Positions 16,725 to 42,156 of a stretch of DNA of 64,000 bases are shown piece by piece; position 1 is the first letter of the stretch, and every line of letters starts with the position of its first letter. The notes below the pieces were generated by a model. It did not search any database and was not told where the DNA came from. It was given only the letters and a program-made list of their open reading frames with translations. The DNA is from Opitutales bacterium. Lineage in GTDB: Bacteria > Verrucomicrobiota > Verrucomicrobiia > Opitutales > UBA2987. The position numbers were made by a program, and so were the translations under genes. The stretch is from assembly GCA_021772515.1 (NCBI GenBank), contig JAJFLU010000053.1, positions 62,001-126,000 of the forward strand, written 5' to 3'.

Positions 16725-17088
16725 GCTTACACAGTGTGCCGCAGCCACTATGGCTGGCCGAAAGTTGAATCGGGTGAACCGGCCATTAAGCAAAAAATCA
16801 TACCTACCGGTAAAAGTGTGGTATATTACTGGAACCTATCTCAAATTCTGCATCATTCATCCGCGAATTTGAGATAGGTTCTATTGGATCTTTTAAATTT
16901 AACACTTGCGATGAGAATTAAAATACGGTTAAATAATTAACTTCCACGGGATATGCAAACCTGATGAATGCACAGTTTGGAGATTTGAAACGTAGATATT
17001 TCCTGACGCGCTTCATCGACAATACTGGAATACATTGAGCGATAAAGAAAATTTTCCGGCTCCTGCGCTTGAAATTCCTTGTGTGGCG
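16725..17088. other. Intergenic stretch holding a long perfect inverted repeat
   Basis: This gap of about 360 bp separates the matrixin-like and M6 protease genes. It is AT-rich near its end and contains the 17-bp inverted repeat listed separately. No convincing ORF, tRNA or riboswitch was seen. Confidence 0.6.
16832..16881. repeat. Perfect 17-bp inverted repeat with 16-nt spacer
   Basis: GAACCTATCTCAAATTC (16832-16848) is exactly complementary to GAATTTGAGATAGGTTC (16865-16881). The spacer is 16 nt. There is no T-run directly after the right arm, so it is not a classical intrinsic terminator, although it lies 108 bp after the matrixin-like gene. It could be a transcript-end hairpin, a dyad operator or a small mobile remnant. 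No second copy was noticed in the window. Confidence 0.7.
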
Positions 17089-20000
17089 ATGCTGAACTGG
17101 CGGTTTTTCGGCATGCTGTGTTTTGCCATTGCCGTAAGCCTCTTTCCCCTGGATTATGCCCTCGGCGTTTCGGCTAATCCGCTTCCTGTGACACTTCTTC
17201 AGCCGGATGGCACTGCTATCATTCTTCGGGTCCGGGGAGATGAATATGGGCATTGGTATGAGGACAAAAAGGGGTATCCGGTAATATTGGACGCTAAAAA
17301 GCGTTATGTTTATGCGACCCTTGATGAGGCCCAAAAACTGCAACCCACGCTACTTGAGGTCGGTAAGACCGATCCTTCAGTCGGGCCAGCAGCATTATTT
17401 CAGAATGTAGTGCCAAATTTTGAAGATGCTGCCTTACGGAAGTCGCGAGCCCTTCACCCAGCCCATGCAAAGGCTAGAGGTTTGCCTATCAAATCCCTGA
17501 AAGGCTATACTCCTGAAGCCGGAATCTTACAGGTTGAAACTGTCAGGAATCTCGTAATTCTGAGTAGATTCAGCAACCATACAGTGGGAGTAAACACCCG
17601 TGCTGCCGGTGATTACAATGCTGTTTTTAACACTCCCGGCGGCCATCCCACCCACGCTCCCACGGGGAGTGTCCGCGATTATTATTTGGAGAATTCCTAT
17701 GGAAATATGATTCTAAACAGCACTGTGGTGGGCTGGGTTACGCTGCCCCATACCGAATCCTACTACGCAAATGGAAGAGATGGATTGGAGGGAAATTACC
17801 CGCAAAATAGCCAAGGTATGGTCAAAGACGCTCTCGAAGCTGCCGATCAGATAATCGATTTTGGAGATTTTGATCTTGATAATGATGGCTATGTTGACTC
17901 CCTCACGATTATTCACTCTGGATATGGGGCGGAGACCGGCGGTGGTGGTGGCAACTGGATTTGGTCACATTACACATTCCTTTGGGACTTGCCGAGCGGG
18001 GAGTGGGTTAGCTCCGACAGGAATGACAGTGGCTTCAGGGTAAAGGCTTTTGACTACCATACGGAACCGGCGCTGTGGGGAACCTCCGGCACCGGGATTG
18101 TCCGAATAGGTGTAATCAGCCACGAGTTTGGACATTATTTTGGATTACCCGATTGGTATGACACCGATAATTCTTCTGAGGGGATTGGTTCCTGGGGTTT
18201 AATGGGCAACTCCTGGGGTTTCGATGGCACTCAGCGCAATCCTCCGCACTTTTCCGCTCTGGGCAAGATCCACTTTGGGTGGGTAATACCAACAACCATA
18301 ACCGCCAATGGCGTTTACTCGGCCCCGCAAGTTGAGAATAACCCCGTGATCTTTAAGATCGAAAAAGGTTTTCCAAGCGGCGAGTACCTTCTTATTGAAA
18401 ATCGCCAACGGGTCGGATTTGAAAGCCGAAACCCCCAAGGTGGACTCGCAATTTGGCATATTGATCTAAACAAGCCCAACAACGAGGATGAAGGTTATCC
18501 ATGGCAAACCGGTTGGCCGCAAAATAATAGGCATTATCAAAATGCTCTCATCCAGGCCGACAGCTCCTATGACCTCGAGCGGAGTAGGAACGATGGCGAC
18601 AGGAGAGATCTCTATCGCCTGAATTGGGTAGATGCGATTACCCCAGATACGTTCCAAAACTTAAACACTTACCAAAATGGAATTGTTAATCCAACCGACA
18701 TCAACATATTCGCCATTAGCGCCAGCGGGACTGGTATAAACATGACCTTCAATGTCGCCTTTAGCAAACCCCCGGTAGCCAACGATGATGCCATCTCAGT
18801 TACAGAGGGGGGGACGGTTTCGGTTCTGGTTAGCGGGGCAATCAGCGTATTGACCAACGACACCGATGTTGATGGAGATGTCCTGGCGGTGGTTGACAAT
18901 ATAAGGAGGAGACGCACAACCAATGGAACCATCAGTATTAGTTCTGATGGAACATTTACCTACGTGCACAACGGCAGTGAGACAGTCCTGGATTCTTTTG
19001 TCTACACCATGACTGATGGGCCAATGCTTAGGTCGGCAACGCTGCATATCACAATCACTCCGGTGAACGATGCACCGGTGGCGATGGAGGATGCTGGTGT
19101 TCCCAATGAGGTGGATGTCGTCTGGGCCAAGCAGATTGGAGGAACAAGTTCCGAAGTAGGTTATGGTATTGCGGTGGACAGTTTGGGTAACGTCTATACA
19201 ACAGGATATTTTGCAGGCACGGTGGACTTCGATCCAGGAGAGGGAGTCTTTAATCTTACTAGTGTTGGCAATAAGGATATTTTTATCAGCAAACTAGACA
19301 ACGCCGGAAATTTTGTCTGGGCGAAACAAATGAGAGGACCGAGTTACGATTTAGAGCTAAGCATCGCGGTGGACAGTTCGAGCTACGTCTATACAACGGG
19401 TGGCTTTACCGGTATAGTAGATTTCGATCCAGGACCAGAGACATTCATTCTGACAAGCATCGGTTATGGTGATGTTTTTGTCAGCAAACTGGACAGCGCC
19501 GGAAACTTTGTCTGGGCGAAACAAATGGGCGGACCAAATGACGATGTAGCGGTAGACATTGCGACGGATAGATTGGGCAATGTTTATACTACTGGCTATT
19601 TTCGCCGTACGGTGGATTTCGATCCTGATATGGCTGAAACTTTTAATCTGACGAGCATCGGCAATCGGGATTTTTTTATAAGCAAACTGGACAGCGACGG
19701 AAACTTTGTCTGGGCCAAGCGAATAGGTTCATCAACTAGTAATGATCAAGGGCTAGGAATCGCATTGGACATTTCGGGCAATGTAATTACGACGGGCATA
19801 TTTCATGGCACGGCAGATTTCGATCCGGGAGAGGGCACATCCAATCTCACGAGCGACGGCACTGACATATTTGTCAGTAAGCTGGACAGCGACGGAAACT
19901 TTGTCTGGGCCAAGCGGATGGGAGGAGAAAATAACGATATAGGGCAAGCTATCGCTGTGGACATTTCGGGCAATGTTTATACTACTGGCTTTTTCCGTGG

Positions 20001-21138
20001 CACTGCAGATTTCGATCCTGGCGCGGGAGTCTTTAATCTTACGAGTGTCGGCGATGAAGATATTTTTGTCAGCAAACTGGACAGCGCTGGCGTCTTTGTC
20101 TGGGCCAAGCGGATGGGAGGAACAAGTGATGATCAAGGGCTAGGCATTGCGGTAGACAATTCAAACAATGTTTATACGTCAGGCTTTTTTAAAGCCACCG
20201 CAGATTTCGATCCTGACGCGGTTGAAACCTTTAATCTGACAAGTCCTTGGAAAGATATTTTTGTAAGTAAACTGGGCAGCAAAGGAAACTTTATGTGGGC
20301 GGGACAAATGGGAGGAACAAGTGATGATCAAGGGTTAGGCATCGCGGTGGACAATTCGAACAATGTTTATACGACGGGCTTCTTTCAACGCACGGCGGAT
20401 TTCGATCCAGGAATATGGATGGTTAATCTCGCAAGCGCCGGCGGTAGTGATTTTTTTGTCAGTAAACTCAGCCCGGCCACTAAATTTGTGACAGATGAGG
20501 ATACCACCTTTACAACGGCAGATGTGTTACGAAACGACATAGACGCGGAAAACGATTTGTTGTCGGTGGCTGGTCTCAACACGGGTGGAACTTTGGGGCA
20601 GGTAATTGACAACGGGAACGGGACATTTGACTACGATCCGAATGGGCAATTTGATGCTCTCGAGGCGGGGGAATTTGCTACTGACACTTTTGTTTACACT
20701 GTATCAGACGGCAACGGCGGAACGGCCACCGCCACAGTGACGATAGTTATCGAGGGGAAAGGCGATCCACCGGTAGGGGTTGGTAGTGATACCGATAAGC
20801 TTCCTGACAGTTGGGAAATGGAGCATTTCGGTGATTTGGATCAGACGGAGGCGGGTGATTTTGACGCCGATGGGTTCAGTAATTTCCTGGAATTCATCTA
20901 TGGGACTATTCCGGGTGATGATAAGTCGTTTCCTCTTTTAAGCCTTACAATTATCGAGACAGGGGAACTCAGATGGTCGACGGTTCCAGGCATGAATTAT
21001 CAACTGCAGGAATCCAGCGACAATCAAATCTGGGTAAATCTCGGCGATCCCATACCGGGCGATGGCGCGACCAAGAGTGTTTTTGTTACACTCTCAGGGA
21101 AAAGCCAAAACTTCTTCCGCGTCGTATTGATCGAGTAA
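17089..21138 (+). CDS. Secreted M6-family metalloprotease with cadherin-like segments and seven SBBP-type repeats
   Basis: A TTG at 17035 would add 18 residues, but the ATG at 17089 directly precedes a good signal peptide (MLNWRFFGMLCFAIAVSL), giving about 1349 aa. An M6 (immune inhibitor A-like) domain fills about residues 130-550, with the zinc site SHEFGHYFGLPDWYD and the nearby GIGSWGLMGNSWG. A VCBS/cadherin-like segment follows (AVTEGG-type block, LTNDTDVDGDVL). Then come seven copies of a 65-66-residue SBBP-type repeat with the core NVYTTG.F.GTADFDPG, ending ISKLD..GNFVWAK. A second cadherin-like segment and a C-terminal LPDSW / DFDADGFSNFLEF / YQLQESSDNQIW module close the protein. It is likely secreted or surface-held. 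Confidence 0.85.
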   Translation: MLNWRFFGMLCFAIAVSLFPLDYALGVSANPLPVTLLQPDGTAIILRVRGDEYGHWYEDKKGYPVILDAKKRYVYATLDEAQKLQPTLLEVGKTDPSVGPAALFQNVVPNFEDAALRKSRALHPAHAKARGLPIKSLKGYTPEAGILQVETVRNLVILSRFSNHTVGVNTRAAGDYNAVFNTPGGHPTHAPTGSVRDYYLENSYGNMILNSTVVGWVTLPHTESYYANGRDGLEGNYPQNSQGMVKDALEAADQIIDFGDFDLDNDGYVDSLTIIHSGYGAETGGGGGNWIWSHYTFLWDLPSGEWVSSDRNDSGFRVKAFDYHTEPALWGTSGTGIVRIGVISHEFGHYFGLPDWYDTDNSSEGIGSWGLMGNSWGFDGTQRNPPHFSALGKIHFGWVIPTTITANGVYSAPQVENNPVIFKIEKGFPSGEYLLIENRQRVGFESRNPQGGLAIWHIDLNKPNNEDEGYPWQTGWPQNNRHYQNALIQADSSYDLERSRNDGDRRDLYRLNWVDAITPDTFQNLNTYQNGIVNPTDINIFAISASGTGINMTFNVAFSKPPVANDDAISVTEGGTVSVLVSGAISVLTNDTDVDGDVLAVVDNIRRRRTTNGTISISSDGTFTYVHNGSETVLDSFVYTMTDGPMLRSATLHITITPVNDAPVAMEDAGVPNEVDVVWAKQIGGTSSEVGYGIAVDSLGNVYTTGYFAGTVDFDPGEGVFNLTSVGNKDIFISKLDNAGNFVWAKQMRGPSYDLELSIAVDSSSYVYTTGGFTGIVDFDPGPETFILTSIGYGDVFVSKLDSAGNFVWAKQMGGPNDDVAVDIATDRLGNVYTTGYFRRTVDFDPDMAETFNLTSIGNRDFFISKLDSDGNFVWAKRIGSSTSNDQGLGIALDISGNVITTGIFHGTADFDPGEGTSNLTSDGTDIFVSKLDSDGNFVWAKRMGGENNDIGQAIAVDISGNVYTTGFFRGTADFDPGAGVFNLTSVGDEDIFVSKLDSAGVFVWAKRMGGTSDDQGLGIAVDNSNNVYTSGFFKATADFDPDAVETFNLTSPWKDIFVSKLGSKGNFMWAGQMGGTSDDQGLGIAVDNSNNVYTTGFFQRTADFDPGIWMVNLASAGGSDFFVSKLSPATKFVTDEDTTFTTADVLRNDIDAENDLLSVAGLNTGGTLGQVIDNGNGTFDYDPNGQFDALEAGEFATDTFVYTVSDGNGGTATATVTIVIEGKGDPPVGVGSDTDKLPDSWEMEHFGDLDQTEAGDFDADGFSNFLEFIYGTIPGDDKSFPLLSLTIIETGELRWSTVPGMNYQLQESSDNQIWVNLGDPIPGDGATKSVFVTLSGKSQNFFRVVLIE
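19117..20486 (+). repeat. Seven tandem SBBP-type repeats (about 195-198 bp each) inside the M6 protease gene
   Basis: The repeat unit encodes WAKQ.GG..DD.G.GIAVD..GNVYTTGFF.GTADFDPG....NLTS.G..DIFVSKLD..GNFV. Seven copies are seen between about 19117 and 20486. Copies 6 and 7 share long identical DNA runs, which points to recent internal duplication. Units of this kind form beta-propeller-like folds; seven would make one closed propeller. Confidence 0.82.
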
Positions 21139-36889: not shown

Positions 36890-39601
36890 ATGAAAATCGC
36901 AAAAAGTGGGAACAATTTAATCAGATTTTTGGGATTCAGAGCGTTATTAGCCACTATTGTTATTCATGGGGTGTCTGTGATTGGGACAAACGGGGAGCTT
37001 TTGTTCACAAATCCCGGTCCGGGTGGCGGCAGTTTCATAATGTCGATCGCCATCCACCCCACCAACCCGGACCTTTTGTATATGGGTGGCGATATCGAAG
37101 GCCCCTTCCTGAGCACCGATGGGGGGACCTCCTATACCCGGATAACGGGAAACCTGGCTGGCGGGAACTCATCTGCGGATATTTACGCGGGGCAGGCCAT
37201 GACTCTCGACCCGCAAAATTCCGAGCGCGTTTATATGGGATCGTGGGGTGGGTTGTACCGGAGCGATGACAGGGGAGTTCTTTGGACTCGATTGACTCTT
37301 GATCCGGTGTTGGAGGCCGTTGAAAATTTCAGTGTGGCCTCGGTGGCAATTTCCCCAACCAACTCGAACCTCATCCTCGCGGGCACAGGTGATGTTGAAA
37401 CGAATGTCGATGGCACCAGCTCGATTTACCGCTCGACGGACGGTGGAACGACTTTTACGAACACCACGGGGTCGGTTTTTTCGGGAGCAGATGTGACCAC
37501 CCACTGGATCGTCTTCGATAGCACCCAAACCGGAGTGGTTTATGCGGCCACCGGAGAAGGTATTTTGAAAAGCGTCGATGATGGTGCGACCTGGGCATTT
37601 ACCAATATGGGACTCCCCAACGGGACTGCCGGGGCACCCATTGTGCAGGGTTTGGTCGGCGTCAACAACGGCGGTGTGTTTACCCTTTACGCGACACTCC
37701 GCAGCCAATCCGGCACTAATTTTGTAGCCGCCGGCGTTTATCGAAGCATCGATAGCGCGGCTACCTGGCAGGATATTACCGGCGATCTACCCAAAGAGCA
37801 GACCGTGGATGAACTTTTGTCCTATTCCTACTGGCATATCGTGGTGAGTTCCTCCGAACCCGGCACCGTTTACATCGGGACGCAATTGGGAACCGCCTGG
37901 GAGCATTTTGGACTCTATAAAACCACCAACGCCACCACTGCGAATGCCGCCGAGGTTACCTGGAGCTATATTTGGGATGTTGAGGGGACAGTTGTGCCGT
38001 TTACCGACTTCGGCTGGCTGGATACCGATTGGTGGAATGACCGGCATGTGGGTTTTCTGGGGATATCGCCCTCGAACCCAAACATCCTCTTCGCGGGGTC
38101 CGATCATATGTTCAAGAGCATCGATGCGGGCGTTACCTGGACGGAAGTTTACTCGCAAACCGTGACGGGCAAACAGGACACCTTTATCGGGCGCGGCATT
38201 GAGTGCATGGAGCCTTTTGACATTGCCTTCGATCCCAACGATGACAACCGCTGGTGGGTCGGTTATGACGATATGGGCCTCTGGCGGACCGATGACGCCG
38301 GAGTTTCATTCGTGCGGTTGGACCCATTACAGAATGAGCCGGGCAGTGTGGATTGCGCCTGTTTTGTGGTCACTGATCCGACCGAATCCAATATCATTTA
38401 TGTGGGTCGCAACGGCGGGGAAAACGATTTCGACATCGACTGGAAATCGGGCAAGGTTTACAAATCAGCAGACAGCGGCGCGACTTGGACTCGGCTGGGA
38501 GAGACGGACTTTGGAAACAGTGGCGCGGGCGGACGGCCCTTTTTACTAATGATGCCGGGCGGAACCCCGACCACGCGAACGATTTTTGCCGCCATTTTTG
38601 GGCAGGGACTGTTTAAATCGACGAATTCTGGCGCTACCTGGACGGCTGTTAACACCGGTTTCGGGGGGACGGATAAGGAGCGAATATGGACGATGGTTAA
38701 CGATCCTGACAATGCTGGAGTCCTCTATGCGGGTATTACTGATGGCGCACCGGATAGCACGATTCAAACCGGTGGTGTCTACAAATCCACCGACGAGGGA
38801 TTGAGCTGGAGTAAACTAAACGGCACCACGGCACCGACGGGTCAGGTCATCGATATGGCCTTGGCGAGTGACGGGACTCTCTATGCGGCCACCGCGCCGG
38901 TATTTACGCTGTTGGAAGTGGGCACGGGCACGCGGCAGGGGGGGCTTTATCGGTCAACTGACGGGGGCGCCACCTGGACACGGGTTTTTGATGGGTTGCG
39001 GGCGGATTATGTGGATGTAGCCCCCACCGATCCGAATATTGTCGTTGTTGGGGTGTCCTCGCTTTTTACCTTCAACCAAGCCCATGATGCCGGCACTTTT
39101 ATCAGCCGCGATGGGGGACTAACCTTTCAAAAGGAGATGGATGGTTTATCACATACTCGATTGTGGATGGTGGAGTTTCACCCGAAGAATAACGATCTGG
39201 TATTTGTCGGCACCGGAGGCGGTGGACTCTTTGCCGGGACCGGAGCCTTACCGGTTGTCGGCGGTGGTATGGATCCCTTTGGCGGGGTGGATTACGTCGG
39301 ATTTCCCAATTGGAAAACGTCAAGCTGGTATAAAAATTACAATGCTCAATATTGGCCCTGGATATTCCACGAAGAGCATGGTTGGCAGTTTGTCTATACC
39401 GGAAGCACTTCGGCGGGGATTTTCCTTTGGGATGTGGGGTTAAAGGAGTGGATATATCTGAATGAGGCAACCTACCGCTGGGAGTTCATTTTAGGCCAAA
39501 ACTCTGGCTGGATTTGGACATTTGACACCAATACCCCTTCCAACAGAGTCTTCAAACGCTTCTCCGATGGCAGTATGTTCAGCATACCTCCTGGTAGTTG
39601 A
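36890..39601 (+). CDS. Secreted Asp-box (BNR/sortilin-like) beta-propeller protein with aromatic C-terminal module
   Basis: A 903-aa exported protein; GGGAG precedes the ATG at a proper distance and residues 1-35 act as a signal peptide. The body (about 45-800) is built of repeats with Asp-box cores such as LYRSTDGGATWTRV, YKSTDEGLSWSKL and FKSIDAGVTWTEV, interspersed with DP.N...VY.G strands; this is the fold of sortilin/VPS10 and of xyloglucanase GH74-type propellers. Without catalytic residues identified I do not call it a glycosidase. The last 95 residues form a Trp/Tyr-rich module (WPWIFHEEHGWQFVY, then FLWDVGLKEWIYLN) that recurs at the end of the next gene. Likely a cell-surface or secreted binding protein. 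Confidence 0.82.
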   Translation: MKIAKSGNNLIRFLGFRALLATIVIHGVSVIGTNGELLFTNPGPGGGSFIMSIAIHPTNPDLLYMGGDIEGPFLSTDGGTSYTRITGNLAGGNSSADIYAGQAMTLDPQNSERVYMGSWGGLYRSDDRGVLWTRLTLDPVLEAVENFSVASVAISPTNSNLILAGTGDVETNVDGTSSIYRSTDGGTTFTNTTGSVFSGADVTTHWIVFDSTQTGVVYAATGEGILKSVDDGATWAFTNMGLPNGTAGAPIVQGLVGVNNGGVFTLYATLRSQSGTNFVAAGVYRSIDSAATWQDITGDLPKEQTVDELLSYSYWHIVVSSSEPGTVYIGTQLGTAWEHFGLYKTTNATTANAAEVTWSYIWDVEGTVVPFTDFGWLDTDWWNDRHVGFLGISPSNPNILFAGSDHMFKSIDAGVTWTEVYSQTVTGKQDTFIGRGIECMEPFDIAFDPNDDNRWWVGYDDMGLWRTDDAGVSFVRLDPLQNEPGSVDCACFVVTDPTESNIIYVGRNGGENDFDIDWKSGKVYKSADSGATWTRLGETDFGNSGAGGRPFLLMMPGGTPTTRTIFAAIFGQGLFKSTNSGATWTAVNTGFGGTDKERIWTMVNDPDNAGVLYAGITDGAPDSTIQTGGVYKSTDEGLSWSKLNGTTAPTGQVIDMALASDGTLYAATAPVFTLLEVGTGTRQGGLYRSTDGGATWTRVFDGLRADYVDVAPTDPNIVVVGVSSLFTFNQAHDAGTFISRDGGLTFQKEMDGLSHTRLWMVEFHPKNNDLVFVGTGGGGLFAGTGALPVVGGGMDPFGGVDYVGFPNWKTSSWYKNYNAQYWPWIFHEEHGWQFVYTGSTSAGIFLWDVGLKEWIYLNEATYRWEFILGQNSGWIWTFDTNTPSNRVFKRFSDGSMFSIPPGS

Positions 39602-39825
39602 ACCCACCAAGGAGCCGCCTTTTAGAGGGCGTCCAATAAGTCGAAGTGACGATGTTAATAAATGGCAAAAATATTGTGCCCCACTTTTGTTACCTTGTCT
39701 CATTCTCGTGGTTGAACTATAAGGAAAATTAAAAATTATTCATAATTGAACAATCTCATTTAATGGATCGTCTCAATTTTTACCGCTCCAGATTACTACT
39801 TTAAACGTAAAGATTCGGGAAAGAT

Positions 39826-42156
39826 ATGAATTATTCACAACGCAAATTCATTGGTGGGAAAGTCCCTGCTTTCACCTTTATGCTGGCAGTTATACTGGGG
39901 TTGTCATTCCAGGCTGTTTTTATGGTCCAAAAGACTGAGGCGAAAAATGCTGATGGAGATAGTTTTTTTATTAATAAATTCGAGGATGATAACAACGTCG
40001 CGATTAGATCGGTTGGTGATTCCGACGATGATGGTATCCCCGATGTCGATGACGATGACGACGATAACGACGGGGTTTCCGATGATGACGATGGCGATGA
40101 TGATGGCGATGGCATTCCAGATACGGTTGAAGATGACTCCGACGATGATGGGATAATTGATGCCTCAGATTCCGACGATGATAATAATGGGATTGAAGAC
40201 GATGAGGAGAACGACTCAGACGGCGATGGCTTGGTAGATGCCGACGATGAAGACGACGATAACGACGGAGTTTCCGATGATGACGATGGCGACGATGACG
40301 GTAATGGTATACCCGACGCGGTGGAGGAAGATTCGGATGGCGATGGAGTCATTGATGCCTCCGATACGGACGATGATGGCAACGGCATTGACGACGAGTT
40401 TGAGGACGATTCAGACGGCGATGGCTTGGTAGATGCCGACGACGATGACGACGATAACGACGGAGTTTCCGATGACGACGATGGCGACGACGATGGTAAC
40501 GGCATACCCGATGCGGTGGAGGAAGATTCGGATGGCGATGGAGTCATTGATGCATCCGATACGGACGATGATGGCAACGGTGTCGACGATGATCTTGAGG
40601 ACGATGCTGATGATGATGGTGTCGTGGACGCCGACGATGAAGACGACGATAACGACGGAGTTTCCGATGATGACGATGGCGACGATGACGGTAATGGTAT
40701 ACCCGACGCGGTGGAGGAAGATTCGGATGGCGATGGAGTCATCGATGCCTCCGATACGGACGATGATGGCAATGGCATCGACGATGATCTTGAAAATGAT
40801 TCAGACGGCGATGGCTTGGTAGATGCCGACGACGATGACGACGATAACGACGGGGTTTCCGATGACGACGATGGCGATGATGACGGTAACGGCATACCTG
40901 ATGCAGTGGAGGAAGATTCGGATGGCGATGGAGTCATTGATGCATCCGATACGGACGATGATGGCAACGGCATCGACGATGAGTTTGAGGACGATTCAGA
41001 CGGCGATGGTATCGTAGACAGCGATGACACTGACGATGATAACGACGGTGTTTCCGATGATGATGACGGTGATGATGATGGTAACGGCATACCCGATGCG
41101 GTGGAGGAAGATTCCGACGGCGATGGTGTCATCGATGCCTCCGATCCGGATGATGATAACAACGGTATCGACGATGATCTTGAAGATGATTCAGACGGCG
41201 ATGGTACTGTGGATGCCGACGACACCGATGACGACAACGACGGTATAGATGATTTTGATGACACCGATGACGACAATGACGGCATCGAAGATGATTTACA
41301 GAATGATCATGACAGCGATGGTTTCATCGACGCCGATGACGATGATGATAACAACGACGGGGTTTCCGATGATCTGACGAATGACTCCGATAATGACGAT
41401 GTAAGCGACGATATTGATGAAGACGATGACGGCGACGGTATCATGGATGATGAAGATATTGATGTCGATAATGATGGAATTCCCAATGATGATGAGATCG
41501 ACAGCGATTCGGACGGCATCACCGATGACGAGGATAGGGACGATGATAATGACGGTATTCCCGACGAAATCGATCTCGATACGGACGGTAACAATATCAA
41601 TGACTCGATCGAAGCACGGGTGGCCGACAAATCGCAGGTGGATGCTCTGACTGGCGCCGAGTTTAATTTTCAGTTTAGCGGGGTGAATGCCCCCACCGGC
41701 TTCGTGGTTCCAGATTTACCTGAGTGGGCCAGTTTGGATCCGGCGACAGGAATCATTACCGGGCTTCCGCCTCAAATCACGGAAAAGGATATCATAACGG
41801 TAAGCGCAGTCAATCAAAACGGCATAGGTGCGCCCAAGAAAATAGCCTTGCGCGTGACTCCCATTGCGGGGTCCGTGGATCTGGGAAACGAATGGTACCA
41901 GAGCGATTGGTTTGGCACCTTCAATGAACAGTATCGGCCCTGGGTCTATCACGAAGGATTGGGCTGGATATTCAGTTTTGGAAACTCGGAGGCCGGATTT
42001 TGGTTTTGGAATCCCACCTTGGGGTGGCTATGGAGCAACGCACAGGCATATCCATTTATCTTCAGCAGTGCGGAGGGCTCCTGGCTGTGGTTTGCCACAC
42101 AGTCCGATCCCTGGATTTTCTTCAATAACGATACCGGAGAATGGTTCAGCCCTTGA
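39826..42156 (+). CDS. Secreted Asp-rich repeat protein (thrombospondin type 3-like) with Ig-like and aromatic C-terminal modules
   Basis: A 776-aa protein with an N-terminal signal/anchor (about residues 14-35). Residues about 65-590 consist almost entirely of Asp, Gly, Asn and Ser in Ca-binding loops of the type DSDGDGVIDASDTDDDGNG, coded by an exact 195-bp (65-codon) tandem repeat. A putative Ig-like domain follows (about 605-690, LPEWASLDPATGIITGLPP). The last 90 residues are the same Trp/Tyr module as in the upstream gene (RPWVYHEGLGWIFSF, FWFWNPTLGWLWSN). The extreme acidity suggests massive calcium binding and a rod-like stalk. It could be an adhesin or matrix/surface-layer component. 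Confidence 0.82.
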   Translation: MNYSQRKFIGGKVPAFTFMLAVILGLSFQAVFMVQKTEAKNADGDSFFINKFEDDNNVAIRSVGDSDDDGIPDVDDDDDDNDGVSDDDDGDDDGDGIPDTVEDDSDDDGIIDASDSDDDNNGIEDDEENDSDGDGLVDADDEDDDNDGVSDDDDGDDDGNGIPDAVEEDSDGDGVIDASDTDDDGNGIDDEFEDDSDGDGLVDADDDDDDNDGVSDDDDGDDDGNGIPDAVEEDSDGDGVIDASDTDDDGNGVDDDLEDDADDDGVVDADDEDDDNDGVSDDDDGDDDGNGIPDAVEEDSDGDGVIDASDTDDDGNGIDDDLENDSDGDGLVDADDDDDDNDGVSDDDDGDDDGNGIPDAVEEDSDGDGVIDASDTDDDGNGIDDEFEDDSDGDGIVDSDDTDDDNDGVSDDDDGDDDGNGIPDAVEEDSDGDGVIDASDPDDDNNGIDDDLEDDSDGDGTVDADDTDDDNDGIDDFDDTDDDNDGIEDDLQNDHDSDGFIDADDDDDNNDGVSDDLTNDSDNDDVSDDIDEDDDGDGIMDDEDIDVDNDGIPNDDEIDSDSDGITDDEDRDDDNDGIPDEIDLDTDGNNINDSIEARVADKSQVDALTGAEFNFQFSGVNAPTGFVVPDLPEWASLDPATGIITGLPPQITEKDIITVSAVNQNGIGAPKKIALRVTPIAGSVDLGNEWYQSDWFGTFNEQYRPWVYHEGLGWIFSFGNSEAGFWFWNPTLGWLWSNAQAYPFIFSSAEGSWLWFATQSDPWIFFNNDTGEWFSP
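40111..41280 (+). repeat. Six strictly spaced 195-bp tandem repeats within the Asp-rich gene
   Basis: The anchor GGCATACCCGATGCGGTGG (with small changes) begins at 40111, 40306, 40501, 40696, 40891 and 41086, always 195 bp apart. Units 2-6 are nearly identical, unit 1 is more diverged. Each unit encodes 65 residues. Less regular DDD-type repeats go on to about 41600. The array is a likely site of copy-number change by slippage or recombination. Confidence 0.92.

Follow-up and report, generated by a model that had tools for sequence, protein, structure and literature searches.

Two neighbouring genes on the forward strand of the window, the stretch of 64,000 nucleotides from an Opitutales genome that was analysed here, encode exported proteins with a Trp-rich tail. 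The first, P0001 (36890..39601, +), is an open reading frame (ORF) of 903 amino acids (AA) with a signal-peptide-like N-terminus, a body that matches the Sortilin-Vps10/BNR Asp-box beta-propeller models of Pfam (PF15902, 2.3e-25; PF02012, 1.5e-10) and a tail domain covering residues 802-903 (39293..39598, +; profile E-value 4e-29). A search with the propeller body returned matches in the same genus only, at the threshold used. The second, P0002 (39826..42156, +), encodes 776 AA and likewise begins with a signal-peptide-like N-terminus, which is followed by an Asp-rich stalk, a He_PIG Ig-like domain (Pfam, 5e-5) and the tail domain (41869..42153, +; residues 682-776, profile E-value 2e-27). Composition and repeat analysis place the Asp-rich body at residues 61-620 or thereabouts (40006..41685, +). 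These 560 residues contain 45 % Asp, carry a net charge of -278 and consist mostly of a repeat of about 65 residues (195 bp) in about six copies. The DxDxDG spacing suggests a putative calcium-binding stalk. On the opposite strand, a Ser/Pro-rich ORF of 484 AA (39831-41285, -) is apparently a mere complement of the Asp-rich repeat and probably not a gene.

Next to the pair lie the gene of an SNF2 helicase and two genes whose products have no Pfam match, and no transporter or processing enzyme adjoins the pair among the window genes that were scanned. A contig of a congener (L033) carries, in this order, the SNF2 helicase, the orthologue of P0001 (syntenic, 73 % nucleotide identity), an additional module protein of 615 residues (L033:6411-8255, +) and the P0002 orthologue, of which the start was found downstream of the P0001 orthologue. 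The pair is therefore a conserved cluster that gains or loses module genes. A protein similar to the additional one lies 3' of the P0001 orthologue in another contig (L021). Elsewhere in the window, a large exported-type protein with an M6 peptidase domain, SBBP propeller repeats and cadherin-like domains (17035-21138) lacks the module and has a C-terminal segment of a different sort.

The tails of P0001 and P0002 share 34 % identity (BLASTP E-value 3e-11 in a single comparison). Since aromatic residues make up 25-29 % of both tails, the likeness was compared with composition-preserving shuffles. The local score of 145 stands against 43±8.3 for the shuffles, with a maximum of 94 in 5000, which rules out chance or aromatic composition as its source. 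A recent duplication of the tail between the two neighbours can also be ruled out because the tails belong to different subtypes in the tree: that of P0001 to the subtype dominant in the window's genus, whereas the closest relatives of the P0002 tail come from other families of the order. The original prediction of a shared Trp/Tyr-rich C-terminal module on two unlike bodies, an Asp-box propeller and an Asp-rich stretch now followed by the recognized He_PIG domain, thus holds, and the module belongs to a larger family than was stated. The strings given for the motif were approximate, as P0002 reads AGFWFWN and GSWLWF, and calling proteins of 903 and 776 AA giant was an overstatement.

A known family was not found for the tail. 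The two tails have no match in Pfam, NCBIfam or the PDB sequences, and 27 diverse copies of the module have no convincing family match in Pfam, NCBIfam or PHROGs. The plasmid sequences searched for the module contained no match, and no description of the domain was found among open-licence papers. Relatives were collected with one tail first, then with a profile made from copies in the genome of the window and finally with a broader profile of the 27 diverse copies. The search with the first profile identified 11 copies in the window's genome, to which the broader one added none. The broader profile was positive in 67 of the 223 genomes sampled from the order (about 30 %), compared to nine of 289 genomes in the phylum sample, a few of them weakly. 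Two weak matches, one of which contains several stops (G121) while the other lies in G155, were treated as probable chance matches, and a further one in the phylum sample (G164) is borderline. Outside the window's order, a multihaem cytochrome-like exported protein also carries the module (L154:11-2152, +). A scan of GTDB species with the pattern of the window's subtype matched only Opitutales metagenome-assembled genomes (MAGs) and a single contig (L020) that is assigned to a Robiginitomaculum MAG from the same series. This contig carries the module of the subtype of the window's genus and is probably misbinned. Taken together, the domain is firmly identified as an uncatalogued family of about 100 residues, rich in Trp and Tyr and found mainly in one Verrucomicrobiota order, the Opitutales, and it appears to be undescribed as a family.

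Copy numbers differ widely within the order. Complete counts in 22 chosen genomes, made with a profile that was partly built from the same genomes, showed that the genome of the window has 11 copies and that of a congener 56, while ten more genomes carry 21-60 and the remaining ten are module-free. Some genomes of the order carry only 1-6 copies, and the distribution therefore reflects expansion and not a strict all-or-none pattern.

The domain is built from an internal repeat of about 20 residues in five units, as detected by comparing the profile with itself (27.7 compared to 9.8±2.1 for shuffled columns, 0/300). Each unit roughly follows the pattern aromatic-I-aromatic, turn, G-W-x-aromatic. 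AlphaFold predicted the P0001 tail, supplied with 37 relatives, with a pLDDT of 95.3 and a pTM of 0.85, and an overlay with the sequence arranges the ten predicted strands as five hairpins. The P0002 tail, for which the alignment was poorly matched, yielded a poor model (pLDDT 60). A Foldseek search with the P0001 tail model found no PDB structure at E<=0.001. The best E-value was 1.4 with query TM-scores below 0.3 among the matches listed, and there was no match in a viral structure library. Judging from this model, the domain is probably undescribed as a fold, too. The conservation of the aromatic residues may reflect the core of the hairpins and not a binding face.

Among 142 copies, which were taken from the best-scoring matches and are not a random sample, 122 lie within 30 residues of the stop codon (88/97 and 34/45 in two sets). 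This applies to all 48 copies from the window's genus and to 74 of 94 found elsewhere, and the original question of whether the module is always C-terminal is answered positively for these copies of the genus and negatively for the family. The remaining 20 copies are mostly located just behind a signal peptide, before another domain or between domains. Domains found 3' of such modules are FGE/SUMF1, fasciclin, chondroitinase-B-like and, once, TonB_C. The three FGE/SUMF1-like cases are exported proteins in which the module directly precedes that domain (L120, L129, L130). The single fusion to a TonB C-terminal domain (L125:8604-9614, +; PF03544, 2.2e-15) suggests that the module can possibly be periplasmic.

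Using a crude rule, a signal-peptide-like N-terminus was assigned to 83 of 120 module ORFs, compared to 104 of 338 neighbouring ORFs. In the window's genome, all 11 copies are C-terminal and reside on exported-type proteins with differing bodies. Enzyme-like bodies comprise two subtilases, an M23 peptidase, a cyclophilin and an endonuclease/phosphatase-fold protein. The others are BNR proteins, an FG-GAP/ASPIC protein, a PQQ-type propeller, the Asp-rich stalk and one protein without a Pfam match. Bodies elsewhere include LRR, pectate-lyase-like, metallophosphatase, VWA, multihaem cytochrome, CAP and cadherin/lectin proteins. Both outcomes that would have spoken against the original prediction, a module confined to internal or catalytic positions or to these two proteins, were thereby excluded.

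Such unlike bodies point to a shared partner rather than a shared substrate, and a common docking partner, as originally proposed, is the best reading of the data. According to this reading, which we regard as having an even chance of being correct, the module would be a portable domain by which exported proteins are docked or retained through non-covalent contacts. The body would be exported via its N-terminal signal peptide, and the module, an independently folding unit that usually forms the last domain, would bind one partner common to all carriers through its aromatic faces and conserved His, Arg and Thr residues. Candidates for this partner are a receptor in the outer membrane and a glycan of the envelope or the exopolymer. 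Binding to it would hold proteins as different as enzymes, propellers, stalks and adhesin-like proteins at one place of the envelope, putatively at the cell surface or in the periplasm. Copies directly behind a signal peptide or before other domains fit a binding domain and not a terminal signal. What speaks against this reading is that the copy number within the order ranges from 1 to 60 and drops to zero in some close relatives, so that the partner would have to be patchily distributed as well or the domain would have to be dispensable.

The main rival, which we consider unlikely, is a C-terminal secretion signal, where a dedicated outer-membrane machine would recognize the folded tail, export the protein and perhaps cleave the tail, as in type IX secretion (T9SS). 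The strong C-terminal bias, with exclusively terminal copies in the window's genus, is compatible with such a signal, too, and counts against docking. In addition, the size of the module is near that of T9SS tails, and many unlike cargo proteins are found per genome. However, the non-terminal copies make a mandatory, cleaved C-terminal sorting signal unlikely. The T9SS C-terminal domains (Por_Secre_tail and relatives) are also beta domains of about 80-100 residues that end many unlike exported proteins of one lineage. The module differs from them in having N-terminal and internal copies, too, and in its ten strands predicted as five hairpins, compared to the Ig-like sandwich of the T9SS tails. 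No T9SS tail family of Pfam or NCBIfam matched any of the 27 diverse modules at E<=1, and SprA_N (PF14349) was found in 0 of 22 genomes in a search in which no control genome had a match either.

Another possibility, to which we assign a low probability, is a carbohydrate-binding module that binds an external polysaccharide degraded by the attached enzyme or on which the cell grows. An aromatic-rich beta domain would suit this role, as would the polysaccharide-active folds among some bodies (pectate-lyase-like, chondroitinase-B-like). Nevertheless, such a module would be expected mainly on glycan-active enzymes, whereas most bodies here are unrelated to glycans, such as the proteases, cyclophilin, nuclease fold, cytochromes, stalks and LRR proteins, and in one genome a single subtype is present on nearly all bodies. 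Least probable of all is a folding or stability cap, which would form and protect the ends of exported proteins rich in repeats without having a specific partner. The compact predicted fold and the frequency of propellers and repeat proteins among the bodies would fit such a cap. Against it, the module is also carried by enzymes with a single domain (M23, cyclophilin, subtilase), N-terminal copies exist, and the large exported repeat protein of the same window lacks it.

To our knowledge, there is no established account of how Verrucomicrobiota of this order retain the many large proteins that they export. With up to 60 carriers per genome, a single recognizable domain makes it possible to list a considerable share of the exported proteome. 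It could serve as bait for the presumed common partner and is a potential tool for protein display on these cells. A small, confidently predicted fold without a match in the PDB is also of structural interest on its own.

Among known systems, the choline-binding repeats of pneumococcal LytA and LytB are similar in that they are aromatic hairpin repeats of about 20 residues on unlike secreted proteins. The profile matched LytB (7pl2) with an E-value of 0.001 summed over seven weak stretches, the best single stretch reaching only 0.78, and LytA (1h8g) with 1.9. The 27 copies had no match to the choline-binding repeat models of Pfam at E<=1, and the Foldseek matches listed for the P0001 tail model include no choline-binding protein. 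Identity with these repeats was rejected as a weak PDB match driven by repeats and composition that the fold search did not bear out, and the resemblance is therefore an analogy at most.

PEP-CTERM is a C-terminal tag on exported proteins as well and occurs in the same genomes, with ten copies in that of the window. In contrast to this tag, the module has no PEP-CTERM motif, transmembrane helix or basic end but is an aromatic beta domain ending a few residues from the stop codon, and it does not match PF07589 in Pfam. Two genomes with 22 and 26 modules (G309 and G470) have no PEP-CTERM match, while three with 34-59 PEP-CTERM proteins (G018, G045, G128) have no module. Exosortase is present in 21 of the 22 compared genomes, irrespective of the module, and the same irrespective distribution was found for homologues of the T2SS-type secretin. 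In G292, a genome of the same family that is nearly complete on a single contig, neither the module nor exosortase, PEP-CTERM or secretin was matched. Exosortase, PEP-CTERM and T2SS-type secretin do not separate module-bearing from module-free genomes, nor do their counts follow the module counts, and the SprA search, with no match in the control genomes, did not separate them either. The suggested search for a co-occurring transporter or processing enzyme yielded none specific to module-bearing genomes among the three candidate machineries tested. Of the proposed sorting signal, the lineage-specific character, the absence from the libraries and the occurrence on unlike exported proteins stood. 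A strict sorting signal did not, given the non-terminal copies, the absence of a hydrophobic helix with a basic end as in known C-terminal sortase-type signals and a copy number that does not track exosortase or PEP-CTERM. A wider, still speculative interpretation is that of a new envelope-attachment system of this Verrucomicrobiota order, which would operate alongside exosortase sorting without depending on it. In this system, a new five-hairpin fold would dock dozens of unrelated exported proteins per cell to a single receptor or polymer specific to the lineage. Domains that are restricted to one lineage and shared by many exported proteins are, as a kind of element, not without precedent.
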